From the NCBI GenBank assembly GCA_009839835.1, contig VXOY01000020.1:1-33637 (forward strand): a DNA stretch of 33,637 nucleotides, in the 5' to 3' direction. The notes beneath the pieces were generated by a model. It had not been told where the DNA came from, did no database searches, and was given only the letters and a program-made list of their open reading frames with translations. Made by a program: the position numbers and the translations under genes. Positions 1,743 to 21,439 of the stretch are shown piece after piece. Within the stretch, counting starts at the first letter, position 1. Each line of letters begins with the position of its first letter. Origin of the DNA: Candidatus Spechtbacteria bacterium SB0662_bin_43. GTDB lineage: Bacteria > Patescibacteriota > Minisyncoccia > Spechtbacterales > 2-12-FULL-38-22.

Positions 1743-2159
1743 CTAAGCAAACTTTATAATAGCAGTAATGATAAGAATACAGACAACTTCGTAGCCTGAA
1801 ATGATACCCCATACGTGCAGTGCTTTCTTGTTGTTACCATACTGAAAGAGGAATCCAGCCAAAGACATCAAGAGTACCACGGCAACCAGCCCAAGCATTG
1901 AAACAAGAGACAGAGGCGCCTCTGCAAGCGAGAAAATACCAATAAGGATAGCGAGGCTCAATAACCCAAGAAGCTGTACTCCCATCGCAAGCCAATTATC
2001 TTTCTCGTCCTCCTTCTTGCCCATCAATTTCATATACTGATCCCGAAATAACACACCGTACCACACCCAACCAACAAGAAAAACAATAACAGCACTCACA
2101 ACAACGTGGAGCCAGGGTAAATCCCCTAATGTTGAAAGAATATCATTTATCATAGTCAA
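1743..2159 (-). CDS. DUF1761-like small membrane protein
   Basis: LHVVVSAVIVFLVGWVWYGVLFRDQYMKLMGK pattern; four predicted TM segments. Confidence 0.7.
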   Translation of the reverse strand: MTMINDILSTLGDLPWLHVVVSAVIVFLVGWVWYGVLFRDQYMKLMGKKEDEKDNWLAMGVQLLGLLSLAILIGIFSLAEAPLSLVSMLGLVAVVLLMSLAGFLFQYGNNKKALHVWGIISGYEVVCILIITAIIKFA

Positions 2160-2260
2160 ATATAATAAGTAATTACTCTGTAGTATAAGAAAGGATAGCG
2201 ATTAAAACAAGGTTTTGTCGCAGAAAACAGCGTACTGCGCCCGAATACAATAGAAAATAT

Positions 2261-2755
2261 CTACCATAGAATGAGTGCGATGGCTAACGTCATCATTCCC
2301 ATATTCTCTACCAAGGTTACATACGTCAGTGGGACATTGAGGGCACTACCAAGACAGACACATTGTATATCGTTTTGCTTTCTTATAGCAAAAAGTACAC
2401 CAATACCACTAAACAACATGAGTGCCGCTTCTACCAACAACAACCAATCTGGGTGAAATCCTGACAACATACTAAAGCCAAATGCAATCTCAATAAACGG
2501 ATAGACGTACCCGTATCCACGCCAACGAGCAGCAAGCAGGTCATATAAGGCGTATCCATCAACAAATTCCCTCAAGCTCAGAAGTTTGAGTCCACCGAAG
2601 ACAAGAAAAAAGCCTGCCATAAAATGCACCACAAATGCATATACACCCTGATCAATGCTGGTCACTGCAGCAGTAGCAGTAATCAGGACAATAACAACAA
2701 TGAGCGGGAGATAGTTGTTCTGCGTGTAGCTATGTTTTGCGTGGTTGTGTTCCAT
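2261..2755 (-). CDS. DoxX/MauE-like redox-associated membrane protein
   Basis: Multi-TM protein with GGLKLLSLREFVDGYALYDLLAARWRGYGYVYPFIEIAFG and CVCLGSALNVPLTYVTLVEN. Start likely at MEHNHAKHS rather than the upstream Met. Confidence 0.65.
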   Translation of the reverse strand: MEHNHAKHSYTQNNYLPLIVVIVLITATAAVTSIDQGVYAFVVHFMAGFFLVFGGLKLLSLREFVDGYALYDLLAARWRGYGYVYPFIEIAFGFSMLSGFHPDWLLLVEAALMLFSGIGVLFAIRKQNDIQCVCLGSALNVPLTYVTLVENMGMMTLAIALILW

Positions 2756-2759
2756 AAAA

Positions 2760-4190
2760 CTATCGCACAATAATGGATGTTGTCATTCCAGCATCTGCAT
2801 GTTCTGCAATATGACAATGATTTAACCATTTCCCTTTATCAAGAGGAACAAGTCCAACCTCCACTGTCTCTTGTGCCCCAACAAGGACTGTATCTCGAAA
2901 GTATGGTTCTTTGACAGACCGCCCGTTGCGAGCGATGACCTTGAAAAATTGCCCGTGTAAATGCATGGGGTGGAGACGAAATGACTTATTTTCAAAAGCA
3001 ATCTTATTAAATTCCCCACTCTGAAGTACAAGGGGGGTGTGTTCTGAAAATGTTTCTCCGTTGATCGTCCACTCAAGACCAGTGCCAGAATTGCGTGCAT
3101 CAAGCACATACCTCTTGTCCACTGGAACATCTACAGCATCAGTCCAATCAGGAACTTGTTCGTTTTGTGGGTAAGGAAATGATGGTGTTACAACAGAGTT
3201 CCCCTCAACAACAATTGTTCCTAATATATTCCTATGCCTTGTAAACTCGTCGTACACATCAAAAGACTTGCCAGCTGCGTTTTTAGGAATTGTTATATCA
3301 ACATCTATACGATTGCCAGGTGCGAGCACAAAACCATTTACATGAAATGCTTCCTTGACATACATACCATCAACAGCGATAACTTTTGCGTCCAAAGAAC
3401 CAAAATTCGTTGTGTAAACACGACCATTTGAAACATTGATTACGCGAAGGCGAATTCTCTCTCCTGGCTGTGCTCGCAACACCTCTTGCAATGAGCTGTT
3501 GACCGTAATAACATTGCCCCACCTGCCATCGTGCGCTAAGTCGTGTTGCGTTACAAAGTAAGGATCTATTTGATACGTATCTTCTAACAACCAATCATCA
3601 ATGACCCAAACCCTATCTTGAGAATACTGTTCGCTGTACTCATCTTCTACAATAAGCACTCCATACAGCCCTCTCTCTAACTGCTCGCTTGAGTTTTCGT
3701 GTGGGTGAAACCAAAACGTGCCTGCGTCTTTAGGGGTAAATTCATAGACAAACGACTCACCCCTCCGAACGGTGAGTTGCGTAATGTCTGGCACACCATC
3801 CATTCTGTTTGGTACGCGGATACCGTGAAAATGTATTGTGCTTGGTTGCCAAAGGTTATTTGTAAAATTGATTCGTACTGTATCCCCTTTACGCACCCGT
3901 ATCTCTGGACCTGGAACAGTACCATTGTAGCTCCACACACTTGTTGAATGTCCTTTGACTATCTCAAGTTGCCCCATACTAGCTACAATGTCCACTTCTA
4001 CAACCCTACCATCTTGTTTATGCTCTTTAGGATATGCTCCTGAAAACTCTTCTGCGAGCGCTTCTTTAGCGTTCGAGAACGGTGAAGAGTCGTTATCAAG
4101 GACAGAAAATACAAGCAGGAAAGAAACAATAACTCCGAGAATAACTATTGACACGGCAATGAGTATTGTACTATTTTTAGATTTTTTCAT
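2760..4190 (-). CDS. Multicopper oxidase (laccase/CueO-like), N-terminally membrane-anchored
   Basis: Copper-binding motifs TIHFHGI, FWFHPHE, HPMHLHGQFF and NHCHIAEHADAGM; N-terminal TM in MKKSKNSTILIAVSIVILGVIVSFLLVF. Confidence 0.92.
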   Translation of the reverse strand: MKKSKNSTILIAVSIVILGVIVSFLLVFSVLDNDSSPFSNAKEALAEEFSGAYPKEHKQDGRVVEVDIVASMGQLEIVKGHSTSVWSYNGTVPGPEIRVRKGDTVRINFTNNLWQPSTIHFHGIRVPNRMDGVPDITQLTVRRGESFVYEFTPKDAGTFWFHPHENSSEQLERGLYGVLIVEDEYSEQYSQDRVWVIDDWLLEDTYQIDPYFVTQHDLAHDGRWGNVITVNSSLQEVLRAQPGERIRLRVINVSNGRVYTTNFGSLDAKVIAVDGMYVKEAFHVNGFVLAPGNRIDVDITIPKNAAGKSFDVYDEFTRHRNILGTIVVEGNSVVTPSFPYPQNEQVPDWTDAVDVPVDKRYVLDARNSGTGLEWTINGETFSEHTPLVLQSGEFNKIAFENKSFRLHPMHLHGQFFKVIARNGRSVKEPYFRDTVLVGAQETVEVGLVPLDKGKWLNHCHIAEHADAGMTTSIIVR

Positions 4191-4339
4191 ATCAGTACTG
4201 CACCACAAACAAAAAAGCGGGAATAGATATAGTATCCCTTTCATTTTAATCTATGGAGCGCGTTATGTACAGACAAACATTGATACACATAACCATATAT
4301 GATATTAAAAACATACCAACTCCTTGAAAGGAGGAGGAA

Positions 4340-4525
4340 ATGGAAACCAAAGAGCACGCCTGCATCTTTTTCATAGAATCCCCGCAAGGCGAATTCTCAG
4401 TAGGCGTTTGTCGTATCTGTGGCGCAAAGAAAGAGTTTGCCAACGCAGCAGAAAACGCTCCTCTCCACAAAACCCACAAAGAACGGTGGAATCAAAAAGG
4501 ATTTAAGCGCACACCCAAGAAATAA
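4340..4525 (+). CDS. Small zinc-ribbon-like protein (CRICGAKKEF)
   Basis: Strong Shine-Dalgarno AAAGGAGGAGG immediately upstream of ATG; CxxC motif; followed by a terminator hairpin. Confidence 0.65.
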   Translation: METKEHACIFFIESPQGEFSVGVCRICGAKKEFANAAENAPLHKTHKERWNQKGFKRTPKK

Positions 4526-4542
4526 CATCCACCCGCACCCCA

Positions 4543-4574
4543 AGAGAACAAAAACAACATTGTTCTCTTTTTTT
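4543..4574 (+). terminator. Rho-independent terminator
   Basis: AGAGAACAA...TTGTTCTCT stem followed by TTTTTT. Confidence 0.75.
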
Positions 4575-4644
4575 GTCGTGAGGCAGCAATGCCCTCAAAA
4601 CATCACTCTGTTTCTCAACACCCATCTCTACGAAAAGATGGGTT

Positions 4645-5106
4645 TTAGAACGAAGCAATAAACTCAAGGACGTTTCGTGCATGTCCTTCTGGTTGTACGT
4701 CTTTCCAATGTCTCCGTACAGTACCGTTTTCGTCTATGAAAACAGTGCTTCGAACAATTCCTGCGGATTTTTTGCCGTTATCTTTTTGTTCACGCAGTGC
4801 ATCGTACGCCCTGAGCACATCTCCGCTTCCATCGCTCAAAAGGCGAATACTCAACTCGTGCTTGTTGCAGAAATCCTTGTGTGACTCTACGGTGTCTTTT
4901 GAAATACCAAGGATTACTGTGTTGTGATTAGAGAACTCTTCTTTCAGTCGCGAAAACTCCACTCCTTCTATTGTGCATCCTGGAGTATCATCTTTCGGAT
5001 AAAAATACAGCACCACTCGCTTTCCTGCATAATCAGAAAGCGAAACCATCGTGCCATCTTGATCTCTCAATACAAAACCCTCTGCTTTTTGTCCTTCTGT
5101 AATCAT
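4645..5106 (-). CDS. bcp: Thioredoxin-dependent peroxiredoxin (Bcp/PrxQ family)
   Basis: LYFYPKDDTPGCTIEGVEFSRL, ILGISKDTVESHKDFCNKHEL, STVFIDENGTVRRHW. Confidence 0.92.
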   Translation of the reverse strand: MITEGQKAEGFVLRDQDGTMVSLSDYAGKRVVLYFYPKDDTPGCTIEGVEFSRLKEEFSNHNTVILGISKDTVESHKDFCNKHELSIRLLSDGSGDVLRAYDALREQKDNGKKSAGIVRSTVFIDENGTVRRHWKDVQPEGHARNVLEFIASF

Positions 5107-15546: not shown

Positions 15547-16038
15547 TTATTCAGTGATTGTTACGTTGCCTGTGATACTCGGCTTGATGTGGTCGTGAAA
15601 GTCCCACTCTCCAGCCTTATCAAACGTAAAACTCCACGATTCACCTGGTGGAATCGGTCTTTTTGGGTCAAATTCAGGGTATATGGTGTGTGAAGGATGT
15701 ACATCAGACGCAGGCCATTTATCGCTTGACGACTCGTTTTTCCATATAATCGTTGACCCCTTCTTCATAATAAGATAAGCAGGCTCGTAGTAATCATCTC
15801 GCATCACAACTGTTGTTGTAACAATAGGAATTTCTATTGTGTCTATGTCTTGGTCTGTTGCCTCTGGTGATACGGGTTCTTGATCCTGTAAGGACTGCTG
15901 GTTGTTTTGCTCTTCAGGAGCTGCTTGCTGGGTGTCGTCTGTATCCTGCGTTGCAAGCAACACACCAACGATTACAATCCCTATGATCAAAAGTGCTCCC
16001 AGCACAAAGATGGTTTTTGGTGTTGTTTTCATATTCAC
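15547..16038 (-). CDS. Cupredoxin-like domain protein with N-terminal TM
   Basis: [74 protein letters not shown] start overlaps the clpP stop; ATG possible at 16032. Confidence 0.85.
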
Positions 16039-16631
16039 TTTACTGGTTTTGTATTGGGTTGAATAATAACGTCTATCAATCCGTACTCTTTTGCCTCCTG
16101 AGACGAAAGGTAAAAATCTCTGTCAGTATCTTTTTCTATCTTGTTCAATGCTTGACCTGTATGGTGCGCAAGAATGGAGTTGAGACGCGACTTCATATTC
16201 AAAATATGCCGCGCAGATATTTCTATTTCGGTTGCTTGCCCCTGAGCTCCTCCCATTACTTGATGCAGCATCATTTCAGAGTTCGGCAAAGCACTCCTCT
16301 TTCCCTTTGCTCCACCACCCAACAACACCGCCCCCATAGAGGCTGCCATACCAACACAAATCGTTGCTACATCGCTTTTAATATGCTGCATTGTGTCGTA
16401 AATCGCCAACCCATCTGTTACAGATCCACCTGGAGAATTGATATAAAACTGAATATCTTTTTGCGATGACTTTGAGTCAAGAAACAATAATTGCGCGATA
16501 ATGGTGTTTGCTACTGCGTCTGTTACTGCAGAGCCTAAAAATACGATTCTCTCCTCTAAAAGACGAGAATAGATGTCGTACGCTCGCTCTCCTAAGTGAG
16601 ATTTCTCAATGACTGTTGGTATGAGTTGCAT
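16035..16631 (-). CDS. clpP: ATP-dependent Clp protease proteolytic subunit
   Basis: [56 protein letters not shown]. Confidence 0.97.
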
Positions 16632-16654: not shown

Positions 16655-17686
16655 TTATGTGCTATCCCCTTTCTCAAGAAAATTAAAGACCTTATCATTT
16701 CGTATCATACCACGAATGTGCGACCGAAGCACATCAGGATGAATGGAGGATTCTGCGTGTTCAGGCGAATCAAACCCACTCAGATACCTATTGGCATGCT
16801 CCTCAATTTCCTCGCTGCTCGGATTGATATCCTCAGCATCTGCAATTGCCTTGAGAATAAACGACGCCTCAACACGACCCTTTGCCTTGTCTTTCCAGTT
16901 TTCATTGAGCTGCTCTCTTGTTTGTCCTGCTTTCTTCAAATAGTCATCAAACGACATATCCAAAGATGCAACGTGACGTTCAAGGTCATCTCGCATCCTT
17001 GTTAGTTCGTTATCAATCAACAAATCCGCAACCTCCATAGAGGTCTCTTTACGAATTGCTTCAATAATTTTTAACCGTAGCGCCTCTGCTCGTTGCTGTT
17101 CTTGCTCTTTGCGTATGCCTTCACGAATACTCTCTTTTAAGTGTTCGAGCGTTTTAAACGCTCCCGTACTCTTTGCAAATTCATCGTCCAACTTCACCTC
17201 TTTGTCTTCGCCTTGTGCAGAACGGCTTTTTGCGAGCGTGTTCAACGCCTCTTCTACCTCGTGTTCATCTACAGTAATCTCTGTTTTTTTATTTTTCTTG
17301 ACAATATCGCGCGCTATCTCGCGATATTGTGGCAATTCAAACGCAGGCTCCAATGGCACCAAAACAGAAAACTCAAAGTTATTTCCTGGAACGCTTTTTG
17401 TAATATCTACTCGTGGGTTGCCCACAGGCTGCAAGTTGTGCTTCTTAAGCGCTTCGCCATACGACTGCTCTATGGCGTCAGCGCTTGCTTCGTGCCACAA
17501 CGCCTCCTTACCAATACTCTTTTCAAGAACATCATACGGAGCAGCACCTTTCCGAAACCCCTTGATAGTTATATTTTTTCCTCGTGCCTGTGCCGCGCTC
17601 TGAAGATACGGTTTCATATCTTCTGGAGAGAGCGAAATCAAAAGTTTTTTCTGGTTTTTTTCGTGATCTTGGATAGTAATATTCAT
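16655..17686 (-). CDS. tig: Trigger factor, apparently lacking the FKBP-type PPIase domain
   Basis: N-terminal ribosome-binding signature [19 protein letters not shown] and C-terminal chaperone domain; 343 aa with no FKBP segment between them. Confidence 0.9.
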
Positions 17687-17794: not shown

Positions 17795-17896
17795 AAGAAA
17801 AGGATTTTTACTTTTTTATACCTAAAATACCACTGCTGTACATACCATTATTTATAAAAATGAGATGGGGTATAAAAAAGTAAAAATCCTTTTCTT
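17795..17896. repeat. Long perfect inverted repeat element (28-bp arms)
   Basis: AAGAAAAGGATTTTTACTTTTTTATACC (17795-17822) and its exact reverse complement (17869-17896), 46-nt spacer. Confidence 0.9.
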
Positions 17897-17949: not shown

Positions 17950-19896
17950 CTACAGAACGAACGGAAGCAAGAGAAACGCGAGCGCTACCACTGTTTTCAT
18001 AAAAACACTCATCGTCTCTACAATGCCCTCCTTAAAAATATCTGTTGCAGACGCTATGTACCGTATTGTTCTCCTTTGTGATCGCGCAAGATCATTCTTG
18101 CCTGATGAAACACTATGATGCGCGCTGCTCCACGCAACACCAAGGATAAACAACGAAAAAGAGAGCAGAAAACTACACGCAATGACCCCTACAACAAACC
18201 CTGTTACTGCTTGCGCTTTTAGCGTCACTATGACCAGTGGCGTTGCTGCCAACAGGAGAAAGAGCGGATACAAAGATTCTCTCTGCACCAATCTGCTTGT
18301 CGTGTCTGTGATCCACGAAAAATCTTTTATCCTGTACTCCTCGCGTTTATCCGCTTGATATGTCTTGATTCTCTCAGTAATACGATGCGACACCTTTATT
18401 GCAAGCGACAACACTCCTGAGAGAAATAAAAACGCGGCACAACACCCCAACAAGATTCCTGACACAAAATATGGCACTGCCACGAACGATGCAATCAGGT
18501 GTTGCTCTTGTGATACAACACTGTACCCAATACTCAAAAACAGCAAAATACTTGCGATGCACGCGATAAAAAATCCATACCCTCTTGTAATTGCAAGAGA
18601 TGCCTGCTGGGCGTTCTCTAAGAACTGCGCAACGCTGTACGAAGAGCTGTCATCACTATCCAGTATGCTACTCGGAGCAAAGAGTGCAAAAAAATACAGC
18701 ACCAACAACAAAGGCATAATGAGCAAGAAACCAGCAACAACCGCTAACACACCGTACATATCTCCAATCATATATCCACCCACTAACGCGATTGAAACAG
18801 ACAATGCAGGAATAGCAACCGACTCCAACCCAACCCCAATACTGCGTATGAACGCCGATATATCGTTCTCTTTGGATGCCTGCACAATGCGCCTCATAGC
18901 ACGAAAAGTTGCTGTATAATAATAATGCGTGAACATCACAGACCCACTCATCACCAAACCTATAACCATGCACCCATACAGAATGAAAAGTTGTGTCTGC
19001 GGTATGTCTCCTCCAAACCAATACACCGCCCCTGGAACAAGCAAGGCACTCATAACCATTGAACCAATAATGACAGTGGAAATAGCACGAAATGACCCAA
19101 TAAACGAACCAGACCGCATAATCAAAACACTTATTGTCGCAGATACCATCCCCACAATACCAACAATAAGAAGCACGGTTGGTACATCAAAAAACGACAC
19201 CAAGAGCAATGACTCTAAAATGATCATACTCGTCATCACCAACACAAATGACTGAACAGCATCTATAGCACCACCGCTCCCGTTGACGCTTTTTGCAACC
19301 AAAAAAGAAACAAGAGAAAGCGCTTTTTTATGCATTGAGGTATCCTCTGTGTAGCTCTGCGACACGTTTTGCAGCACACCGCCGCCCATCTTGACAAAAA
19401 ATAACAGCATTGAGTGACCCACCACTGCTCCTACTAACACTTCTTTGTGTTCTGAAAAAATATGATACAGAGCCGCAACCTCAACTAACGACACAGCAAA
19501 AACGCCTATGCCCAAAACACCAGAAGCAGTAAACGCAGTGTGAAATCGTCTCTCTTTGCTCTCTCGCGTTCCTCCTTGCAGCCTCCCAACGATTTTACAA
19601 AAAAAGACAGCAACATAATAACTCACACAGAGCGACACCCCTGTTCCTATCAAAAAACCAGTAACACCCTGTATGCCAATAGCAAAGAACAAAAGTACAG
19701 CACCCAAAAACGAAAGGATAAAAATAGCCTGATATACTCTTCTAAAATAGGAAAACGCAACCGACTCAAGGGTTACAATAAACGATTTCACCTGCCCAAC
19801 AGCAGGCATTCTATGCAATACAACCAACGCAACAAGAACACTTCCTGCCAAAAAGGTACTGGCTATCAATGCTGACAACAAAAAAGTATCTACCAT
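17950..19896 (-). CDS. Membrane-bound pyrophosphatase (H+-PPase) homologue with degenerate active-site motifs
   Basis: Multi-TM protein whose order of segments follows H+-PPases (VAFSYFRRVYQ..., VKMGGGVLQNVSQS, FTHYYYTATFRAMRRIVQASKEND, IGVGLESVAIPALSVSIAL, ASLAITRGYGF, GVAWSSAHHSV, TDIFKEGIVETMSVFMKTVVALAFLLLP), but without canonical Asp-rich catalytic motifs. Confidence 0.75.
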   Translation of the reverse strand: MVDTFLLSALIASTFLAGSVLVALVVLHRMPAVGQVKSFIVTLESVAFSYFRRVYQAIFILSFLGAVLLFFAIGIQGVTGFLIGTGVSLCVSYYVAVFFCKIVGRLQGGTRESKERRFHTAFTASGVLGIGVFAVSLVEVAALYHIFSEHKEVLVGAVVGHSMLLFFVKMGGGVLQNVSQSYTEDTSMHKKALSLVSFLVAKSVNGSGGAIDAVQSFVLVMTSMIILESLLLVSFFDVPTVLLIVGIVGMVSATISVLIMRSGSFIGSFRAISTVIIGSMVMSALLVPGAVYWFGGDIPQTQLFILYGCMVIGLVMSGSVMFTHYYYTATFRAMRRIVQASKENDISAFIRSIGVGLESVAIPALSVSIALVGGYMIGDMYGVLAVVAGFLLIMPLLLVLYFFALFAPSSILDSDDSSSYSVAQFLENAQQASLAITRGYGFFIACIASILLFLSIGYSVVSQEQHLIASFVAVPYFVSGILLGCCAAFLFLSGVLSLAIKVSHRITERIKTYQADKREEYRIKDFSWITDTTSRLVQRESLYPLFLLLAATPLVIVTLKAQAVTGFVVGVIACSFLLSFSLFILGVAWSSAHHSVSSGKNDLARSQRRTIRYIASATDIFKEGIVETMSVFMKTVVALAFLLLPFVL

Positions 19897-19910: not shown

Positions 19911-21242
19911 TTATTCTTTTGTAGTATCCTGACCCGTATCACCTTCTCCCCCTGTCTCATCGTCTGCACCCTGTGCCTCGTCCTTGCTATCAGTATCCTG
20001 TTCTGTTTCATTGCTAACACCATCATCTTCCTGCTCTTCTGTGTCCTCGTTGGTCTCTTCTGATGATTCCTCGATCTTGCCTGTTTCTTTACTCACAATG
20101 TCTATCTTCCACCCTGTTAATTTAGCGGCAAGTCGCACATTCTGCCCATCCCTTCCAATCGCAAGAGAGAGCTGATCTTCTGCAACAACGACCTGCGCCC
20201 TCTCATCTTGTATCTCCACATCCAAGACGCGCGCAGGGCTCAATGCACTTGCAATAAAATCGTCCACGTTCTCGCTCCACCCGATAATATCTATCTTCTC
20301 GCCTCCTAACTCCTGTATAACGGCAGAGACTCGCGTTCCTCCTTGCCCCACACACGAACCGATCGGATCCACGCCTGGTTCTTTTGATACAACAGCAATT
20401 TTGCTCCTTGAACCTGCCTCTCGTGCCAATGCCTTGATTTCGAGAGACCCTGCTCCAATTTCAGGAACCTCTACTTCAAACAACTTTTCTAACATTTTTG
20501 GATGCGAACGGGAAACAATAATCTGCGGACCACGTGCTCCTTTATCAACAGCAACCAAATATAAGCGCATCCGCACGCCAACTCTGTAGTGCTCGGATGG
20601 AATCCTGTCTTTTGGTGCCATCACGCCCGTGGACTTTCCAATGTCAAAAAATATATATCCTCGTTCAACTCGTTGTACAATGCCGCTAATAATGGTATCA
20701 ACCTTCTCCATAAATTCATTATAGACAGCATTTCTCTCTGCTTCTCTAATTTTTTGGATAACGACTTGCTTTGCTGTCTGAACAGCGATTCGCCCAAATT
20801 CATCCTTGTAGTCTAAATCTATTTTCAAAATGTCCCCTGGCTGCAGCTTCTTGTTCTGTTTCTGAGCCTCATCCACCATAATGTGTCGCTCCTCGTTAAA
20901 CCACACCTTTGCTGGCTCCTCATTTTCTGTGTCCTCATCCTGGTCTTCTCTGTCATCTTCTTGCTTTTCTTCTAATTCCTGTTCAGTACGCGATTCGCCT
21001 TCCTCAATATCCTCCTCGCTCTTCAACATAGAGTCGTCAACGACTGTTTTCTCTTGCCACAAAACAAAACTGCCTGTATCTATATCCATGCGCGCTTTGA
21101 TGACTTGTCCTCTCTCGCCATACTCTTTTTTGTACGCGGTCGCAAGAGCGGTCTCGATGGTCTCTATCATCGCCTCTCTTGATATTCCCTTTTCTTCCTC
21201 TATTGACGCCATAGCAGCAACAAAGTTTTTTAAATCGATCAT
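19911..21242 (-). CDS. nusA: Transcription termination/antitermination factor NusA
   Basis: MIDLKNFVAAMASIEEEKGISREAMIETIETALATAYKKEYG; KH signatures DPIGSCVGQGGTRVSAVIQELGGEKIDII and LSLAIGRDGQNVRLAAKLTGWKIDI; acidic insert and acidic C-tail. Confidence 0.96.
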   Translation of the reverse strand: MIDLKNFVAAMASIEEEKGISREAMIETIETALATAYKKEYGERGQVIKARMDIDTGSFVLWQEKTVVDDSMLKSEEDIEEGESRTEQELEEKQEDDREDQDEDTENEEPAKVWFNEERHIMVDEAQKQNKKLQPGDILKIDLDYKDEFGRIAVQTAKQVVIQKIREAERNAVYNEFMEKVDTIISGIVQRVERGYIFFDIGKSTGVMAPKDRIPSEHYRVGVRMRLYLVAVDKGARGPQIIVSRSHPKMLEKLFEVEVPEIGAGSLEIKALAREAGSRSKIAVVSKEPGVDPIGSCVGQGGTRVSAVIQELGGEKIDIIGWSENVDDFIASALSPARVLDVEIQDERAQVVVAEDQLSLAIGRDGQNVRLAAKLTGWKIDIVSKETGKIEESSEETNEDTEEQEDDGVSNETEQDTDSKDEAQGADDETGGEGDTGQDTTKE

Positions 21243-21439
21243 ATAATACAATAGGTTTAATGTTACTATTTGAAAAAACACCCATTTCATAGTATGGATG
21301 CTCTACTATCATACTACCAATATATCAATTCTGTCGTCAAGCAATACAGCCAAAGATACCTAATACGATGTTGTTTTATTCTATGCAGACAGGGTTTGAC
21401 TTAATATATTCCTCTATATCACTACCATTTATCAACAGA

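Follow-up and report, generated by a model that had tools for sequence, protein, structure and literature searches.

Can a membrane pump be stripped of its active site and still be kept, at full length, in a very small genome? And if so, is such a gene a dying remnant, or has its membrane body found another use? These questions are raised by an open reading frame in the window, by which we mean the whole 33,637-nt stretch of DNA analysed here, from Candidatus Spechtbacteria bacterium SB0662_bin_43, of the Patescibacteria type (genome of 755,616 bases, assembly 93% complete). A preliminary description, based on alignment by eye, had placed a 648-aa, apparently catalytically dead homologue of membrane pyrophosphatases (M-PPases) at 17950-19896. 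Position and length stand, while the strand had to be corrected to minus, the plus-strand reading having many stops. The neighbours named in that description, clpP, tig and nusA, agree with the gene matches of the window:

16035..16631, minus strand: clpP, conserved downstream neighbour of pseudo-hppA
16655..17686, minus strand: tig, trigger factor without FKBP domain, conserved downstream neighbour of pseudo-hppA
17950..19896, minus strand: pseudo-hppA, degenerate membrane pyrophosphatase, 648 aa, 16 predicted helices, ATG at 19896
19911..21290, minus strand: nusA, conserved neighbour, 14 nt upstream of pseudo-hppA

We refer to the window genome as G000 and to the other two genomes of its family as G001 and G002. 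The FKBP-type prolyl isomerase domain of trigger factor is absent in all three family members (window, L033, L049) and in G004 (L039), and present in G003. Pseudo-hppA is separated from tig by 263 nt, and this gap contains a perfect 28-nt inverted repeat (17795-17822 and 17869-17896, with a 46-nt loop), for which a MITE-like element and a long hairpin are candidate readings. The repeat has no further copy in the window, and the gap itself is missing from G002. Elsewhere in the window, at 2261-5106, genes for a multicopper oxidase, a MauE-like membrane protein and an AhpC/TSA peroxiredoxin are clustered, in a genome of 0.75 Mb.

Fold and descent of the open reading frame

The sole Pfam match of the 648-aa protein is H_PPase (PF03030; 8.2e-31, 107.8 bits, cut-off 29.7). 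The M-PPase equivalogs of NCBIfam cover residues 10-646 of 648, but score 114 bits against cut-offs of 546-1321. When the family alone was compared with active enzymes by hhalign, the two profiles matched with 100% probability (E 1.5e-51, 585 columns). A sequence search of the PDB with the protein alone returned no M-PPase, so that profiles and fold are needed to recognise it as one. The AlphaFold2 model, built from a five-row alignment that includes active enzymes, which helps the model, has 16 helices, a pTM of 0.73 and a mean pLDDT of 64. Submitted to Foldseek, as the preliminary description had proposed, this predicted structure recovered the M-PPase fold: all 36 PDB matches with E < 0.001 were M-PPases, the best being Thermotoga maritima PPase 8b21 (TM 0.84/0.77), with the Pyrobaculum enzyme (PaPPase) at 0.83/0.80. 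The predicted structure of a Spechtbacteria relative's homologue behaves alike, with a TM of about 0.8. Smoothed hydropathy correlates with that of active enzymes at 0.71-0.76, versus a circular-shift maximum of 0.26-0.40. Pfam, profile-profile comparison and predicted fold thus bear out the proposed full-length M-PPase homologue, confirmed by descent at the level of sequence and by fold at the level of the model.

Is the degeneration a private matter of the window genome? In each of the three family genomes, representing three genera, there is a single uninterrupted H_PPase, 612-648 aa long, whose score is degenerate. The four genomes from other families of the order encode the canonical enzyme, with 804-820 bits for complete copies; that of G005 is divided between two contigs. 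Gene order around hppA, compared at loci L033, L038, L049 and L064, is an identical clpP-tig-hppA-nusA in G000, G001, G002 and the canonical G003, and as far as the compared stretch shows the same locus, with a canonical hppA, is found in Bacterium BMS3Abin15. The canonical enzymes of the order itself are the nearest, or almost the nearest, to the pseudo copies. A recent pseudogene restricted to the window genome is ruled out by the family-wide pattern; an artefact or wrong frame is rejected because three separate assemblies each have the ORF uninterrupted.

The clade thus shares the loss, a point that the preliminary description had proposed to check by phylogeny. The tree places the three genera together (92/87), yet the branches leading to the pseudo copies are all extremely long. 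For this reason a single origin within the family, and with it one loss of the catalytic residues, is likely only, and placement against the second lineage described below is unreliable. In family f70, the M-PPases at L053 and L054 (G349, G152) are likewise on a long branch; they measure about 802 aa, score about 600 bits and retain their motifs, and may contain an inserted segment.

The second lineage, f189, belongs to another class of the phylum. Two of its genera encode degenerate M-PPase homologues of 523 and 546 aa (L088:5064-6635 and L089:4506-6146), with Pfam H_PPase matches of 1.3e-15 and 6.1e-7, the latter just under cut-off. They adjoin not nusA/tig but a gene that we take, from its sequence, to be VanW-like. 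Neither of the two genomes has matches to F-ATPase or to soluble family-I PPase. By sequence, f189 is probably a second, independent case of a degenerate M-PPase in the phylum. It suggests that loss occurred more than once. The remaining low-scoring H_PPase matches in class and phylum are contig-edge or short fragments, with one marginal case (G665).

Loss of the hydrolytic centre

In the M-PPase active site, Asp, Asn and Lys residues are described as completely conserved and as what allows Mg-PPi to be bound and hydrolysed (PMC10897367, PMC5150537). We located these positions, in Vigna radiata PPase numbering transferred by alignment, with three independent alignments: MAFFT L-INS-i with 39 relatives, a canonical HMM, and hhalign. 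K250, D253, D257, D279, D283, D287, D507, N534, D691, K694, D723, D727, K730 and D731 are essentially invariant in the 37-39 canonical relatives. In the window protein, the first eleven of these, from K250 to D723, are replaced or missing. A 'DIFK' match in helix 16 retains D727 and K730, with D731 changed to E. The affected segments are:

19279..19371, minus strand: residues 176-206, in place of the cytosolic helix 5-6 region; K250, D253, D257, D279, D283 and D287 all lost
18577..18714, minus strand: residues 395-440, helix 11/12 region; D500, D507, N534 and K541 lost
18109..18141, minus strand: residues 586-596, GVAWSSAHHSV, at the helix 15 motif GGAWDNAKK; D691, N692, K694 and K695 lost
17956..18084, minus strand: residues 605-647, helix 16; D727, K730 and K742 kept, D723 lost, D731 changed to E

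Columns 174-213 of the canonical HMM find no match at residues 176-206. Near-invariant charged or Asn residues are retained at 6 of 34 positions in G000, 8 of 34 in G001 and 10 of 34 in G002, mostly different ones in each. DxxxD motifs number 0, 0 and 1 in G000, G001 and G002, versus 5 in active enzymes, and a scan for active-enzyme motifs found KxxDxxxD in none of the three proteins.

The ion gate of M-PPases consists of D6.50, S6.54, E6.53/57, D/N16.46 and K16.50 (PMC5150537, PMC10897367). D294 (D6.50), S298 (S6.54) and K742 (K16.50) are aligned in the window protein, without the glutamate and N16.46; G001 retains D, E (E6.53), T and K, and G002 has lost the residue set. The motif replacements first spotted by eye recur in all three alignments, with the refinement that D727, K730, D294, S298 and K742 survive. 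'Catalytically dead' is supported as well: by MAFFT alignment, HMM and motif scan, the catalytic residues have disappeared and have not moved to other positions.

On these grounds we can say with high confidence that the window protein would no longer hydrolyse PPi and hence no longer pump; it is very probably not a pump. Our main reading, to which we give a probability of about 0.88, is that it represents a non-hydrolysing M-PPase descendant, a pseudoenzyme. Points against this reading are the ion-gate residues D294, S298/T and K742 still present in G000 and G001, and a structural model whose mean pLDDT is only 64. Like pseudokinases and pseudophosphatases, it retains fold and gene and loses catalytic residues. 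With K+-independent H+-PPases (Pyrobaculum aerophilum PPase, PDB 8b37, and the order's canonical hppA, whose copies have the Lys at 12.46 (537) of this type) it has length, 16-helix fold and membrane pattern in common, and with the order's hppA also the locus between tig and nusA. Unlike them, it is devoid of nearly all PPi/Mg ligands and scores far below every curated M-PPase equivalog cut-off. The K+-dependent Na+-PPase of Thermotoga maritima (PDB 8b21, 4av3) is the best structural match of the predicted structure (TM 0.84), but is 18% identical, and the window protein has neither its hydrolytic centre nor its ion-gate glutamate.

Pyrophosphate disposal in the family and class

If the membrane enzyme is inactive, what removes pyrophosphate? 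A canonical hppA, which the preliminary description had suggested looking for, was not found in the 755-kb window genome (93% complete), nor was any other H_PPase. We surveyed the 387 genomes of the class, scoring a strong PF00719 (family I) match as a soluble PPase; the 194 genomes with an M-PPase outside the family were called canonical by score, with residues inspected in about 39. A strong soluble PPase is encoded by 1 of these 194, versus 91 of the 190 genomes that have no M-PPase (Fisher 5e-33). Canonical M-PPase and soluble family-I PPase are nearly mutually exclusive in the class. The four canonical order-mates conform to this, none having a soluble PPase (0/4). G000 and G001 have the dead membrane form alongside an intact soluble family-I PPase; the two soluble enzymes are 58% identical, and the G000 gene has ordinary neighbours and surroundings of matching GC. 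In two of the three family genomes, PPi chemistry has apparently been taken over by the soluble enzyme.

G002 (93% complete) complicates this picture: it gave no match to a soluble family-I PPase or to an F-ATPase catalytic subunit, so that a hand-over to the soluble enzyme does not account for its PPi disposal, a point against our main reading. G001 likewise lacks the F-ATPase catalytic subunit, which G000 and the canonical order-mates have. Across the class, 99 of the 387 genomes have neither the membrane nor the soluble (family I) enzyme, making another route of PPi disposal likely.

Retention of the 16-helix body

Why has the gene been kept? When 10% of bases were redrawn neutrally, the probability of no stop was 0.0015-0.003, and the pseudo-hppA genes have changed far more than that. 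Since an open frame is this improbable under neutral redraw and hydropathy has been retained, selection on the frame and on the membrane architecture is well supported, as judged from sequence. The retained function proposed at the outset gains from this, in that neutral drift would have introduced stops and the frame is open in three genera. Fourfold sites of nusA are 30-34% identical between the genera, versus 26% expected at full saturation; because they are this close to saturation, dN/dS between the three genera is not computable.

What selection no longer seems to see is the core. We took helices 5, 6, 11, 12, 15 and 16 as the inner ring, as in established M-PPase structures. Among active enzymes, identity averages 69% in the inner ring and 43% in the outer. 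When the family is compared with active enzymes, inner and outer ring are 23% and 21% identical; among family members, 21% and 24.5%. By this measure, the PPi-binding, ion-conducting core has lost its special constraint. A few positions, such as W293, P299 and Q300, are conserved specifically in the family. With a within-family identity of only 18-30%, no new functional site stands out by sharp conservation, which also counts against our main reading.

Could the protein still be a pyrophosphatase whose shifted residues escaped the alignments? D727 and K730 of helix 16 remain; with no DxxxD or KxxDxxxD anywhere in the protein, shifted catalytic residues are very unlikely, and given also the soluble PPase of G000 we regard this as hardly credible. 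Neofunctionalisation, to an enzyme or transporter that uses new residues to handle a different substrate, might be read from positions such as W293, P299 and Q300. The former active site, however, has no family-wide set of conserved polar residues, and such a protein would be a long shot. Loss of the centre could also have left an uncoupled passive channel or permease, with H+ or Na+ still passing through the ion gate and exit channel. The gate residues that align in G000 and G001 (D6.50, S/T6.54 and K16.50, with E6.53 in G001) are what one would expect of it, but they are lost in G002, and conservation of the helices lining the path no longer exceeds that of the outer ring; we consider a channel quite unlikely.

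More serious is the idea of a slowly dying remnant, with a frame open only because stops in the nusA-hppA-tig operon are polar. Divergence is indeed very high (the proteins' 18-30% identity among genera compares with about 60% for NusA), and spacing is tight, hppA and tig overlapping by 4 nt in G002. On the other hand, hydropathy profile and 16 helices are retained, a streamlined genome could easily have lost the gene by deletion in frame, and f189, keeping such an ORF outside this operon, weakens the polarity explanation. A dying remnant is therefore unlikely in our view. We tentatively favour, with low confidence, a structural or partner-binding scaffold role for the 16-helix body, and prefer it to a channel because fold and hydrophobic pattern are kept while the inner catalytic and conduction core is under no special constraint.

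The course of events that we consider most probable for the non-hydrolysing descendant starts from a vertically inherited gene for an H+-pumping membrane pyrophosphatase. Its hydrolytic centre was taken apart in the ancestor that the Spechtbacteria-containing family has in common, or earlier, and PPi removal, we hold with high confidence, passed to a soluble family-I enzyme in two lineages. The 16-helix body may have been retained to serve in the membrane as a scaffold or to bind partners. For the phylum as a whole, we give even odds to the view that non-catalytic M-PPase proteins arose at least twice, and that the body, once a soluble pyrophosphatase or other means had assumed the chemistry, was kept for a new role in the membrane that has nothing to do with pyrophosphate.

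In the open literature, which mostly excludes subscription papers, we found no inactive or pseudo M-PPases and no M-PPases in these phyla; the degenerate proteins would seem to be the first 'pseudoenzyme' known among these pumps. A clade that lacks the active-site residues and keeps the protein separates what the fold needs from what catalysis needs, and provides natural mutants for asking what the M-PPase scaffold alone can do. It also shows how very small genomes trade a PPi pump that conserves energy for a soluble enzyme that wastes it. Where annotation relies on PF03030 alone, a proton pump will be wrongly attributed to these organisms. Viral contigs scanned with the family alignment yielded no relative. 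One IMG/VR contig (L078) encodes a canonical hppA at 1910-3901 (plus strand); opposite this gene, along nearly its full length, runs an open frame of 660 aa (1922-3904, minus strand).
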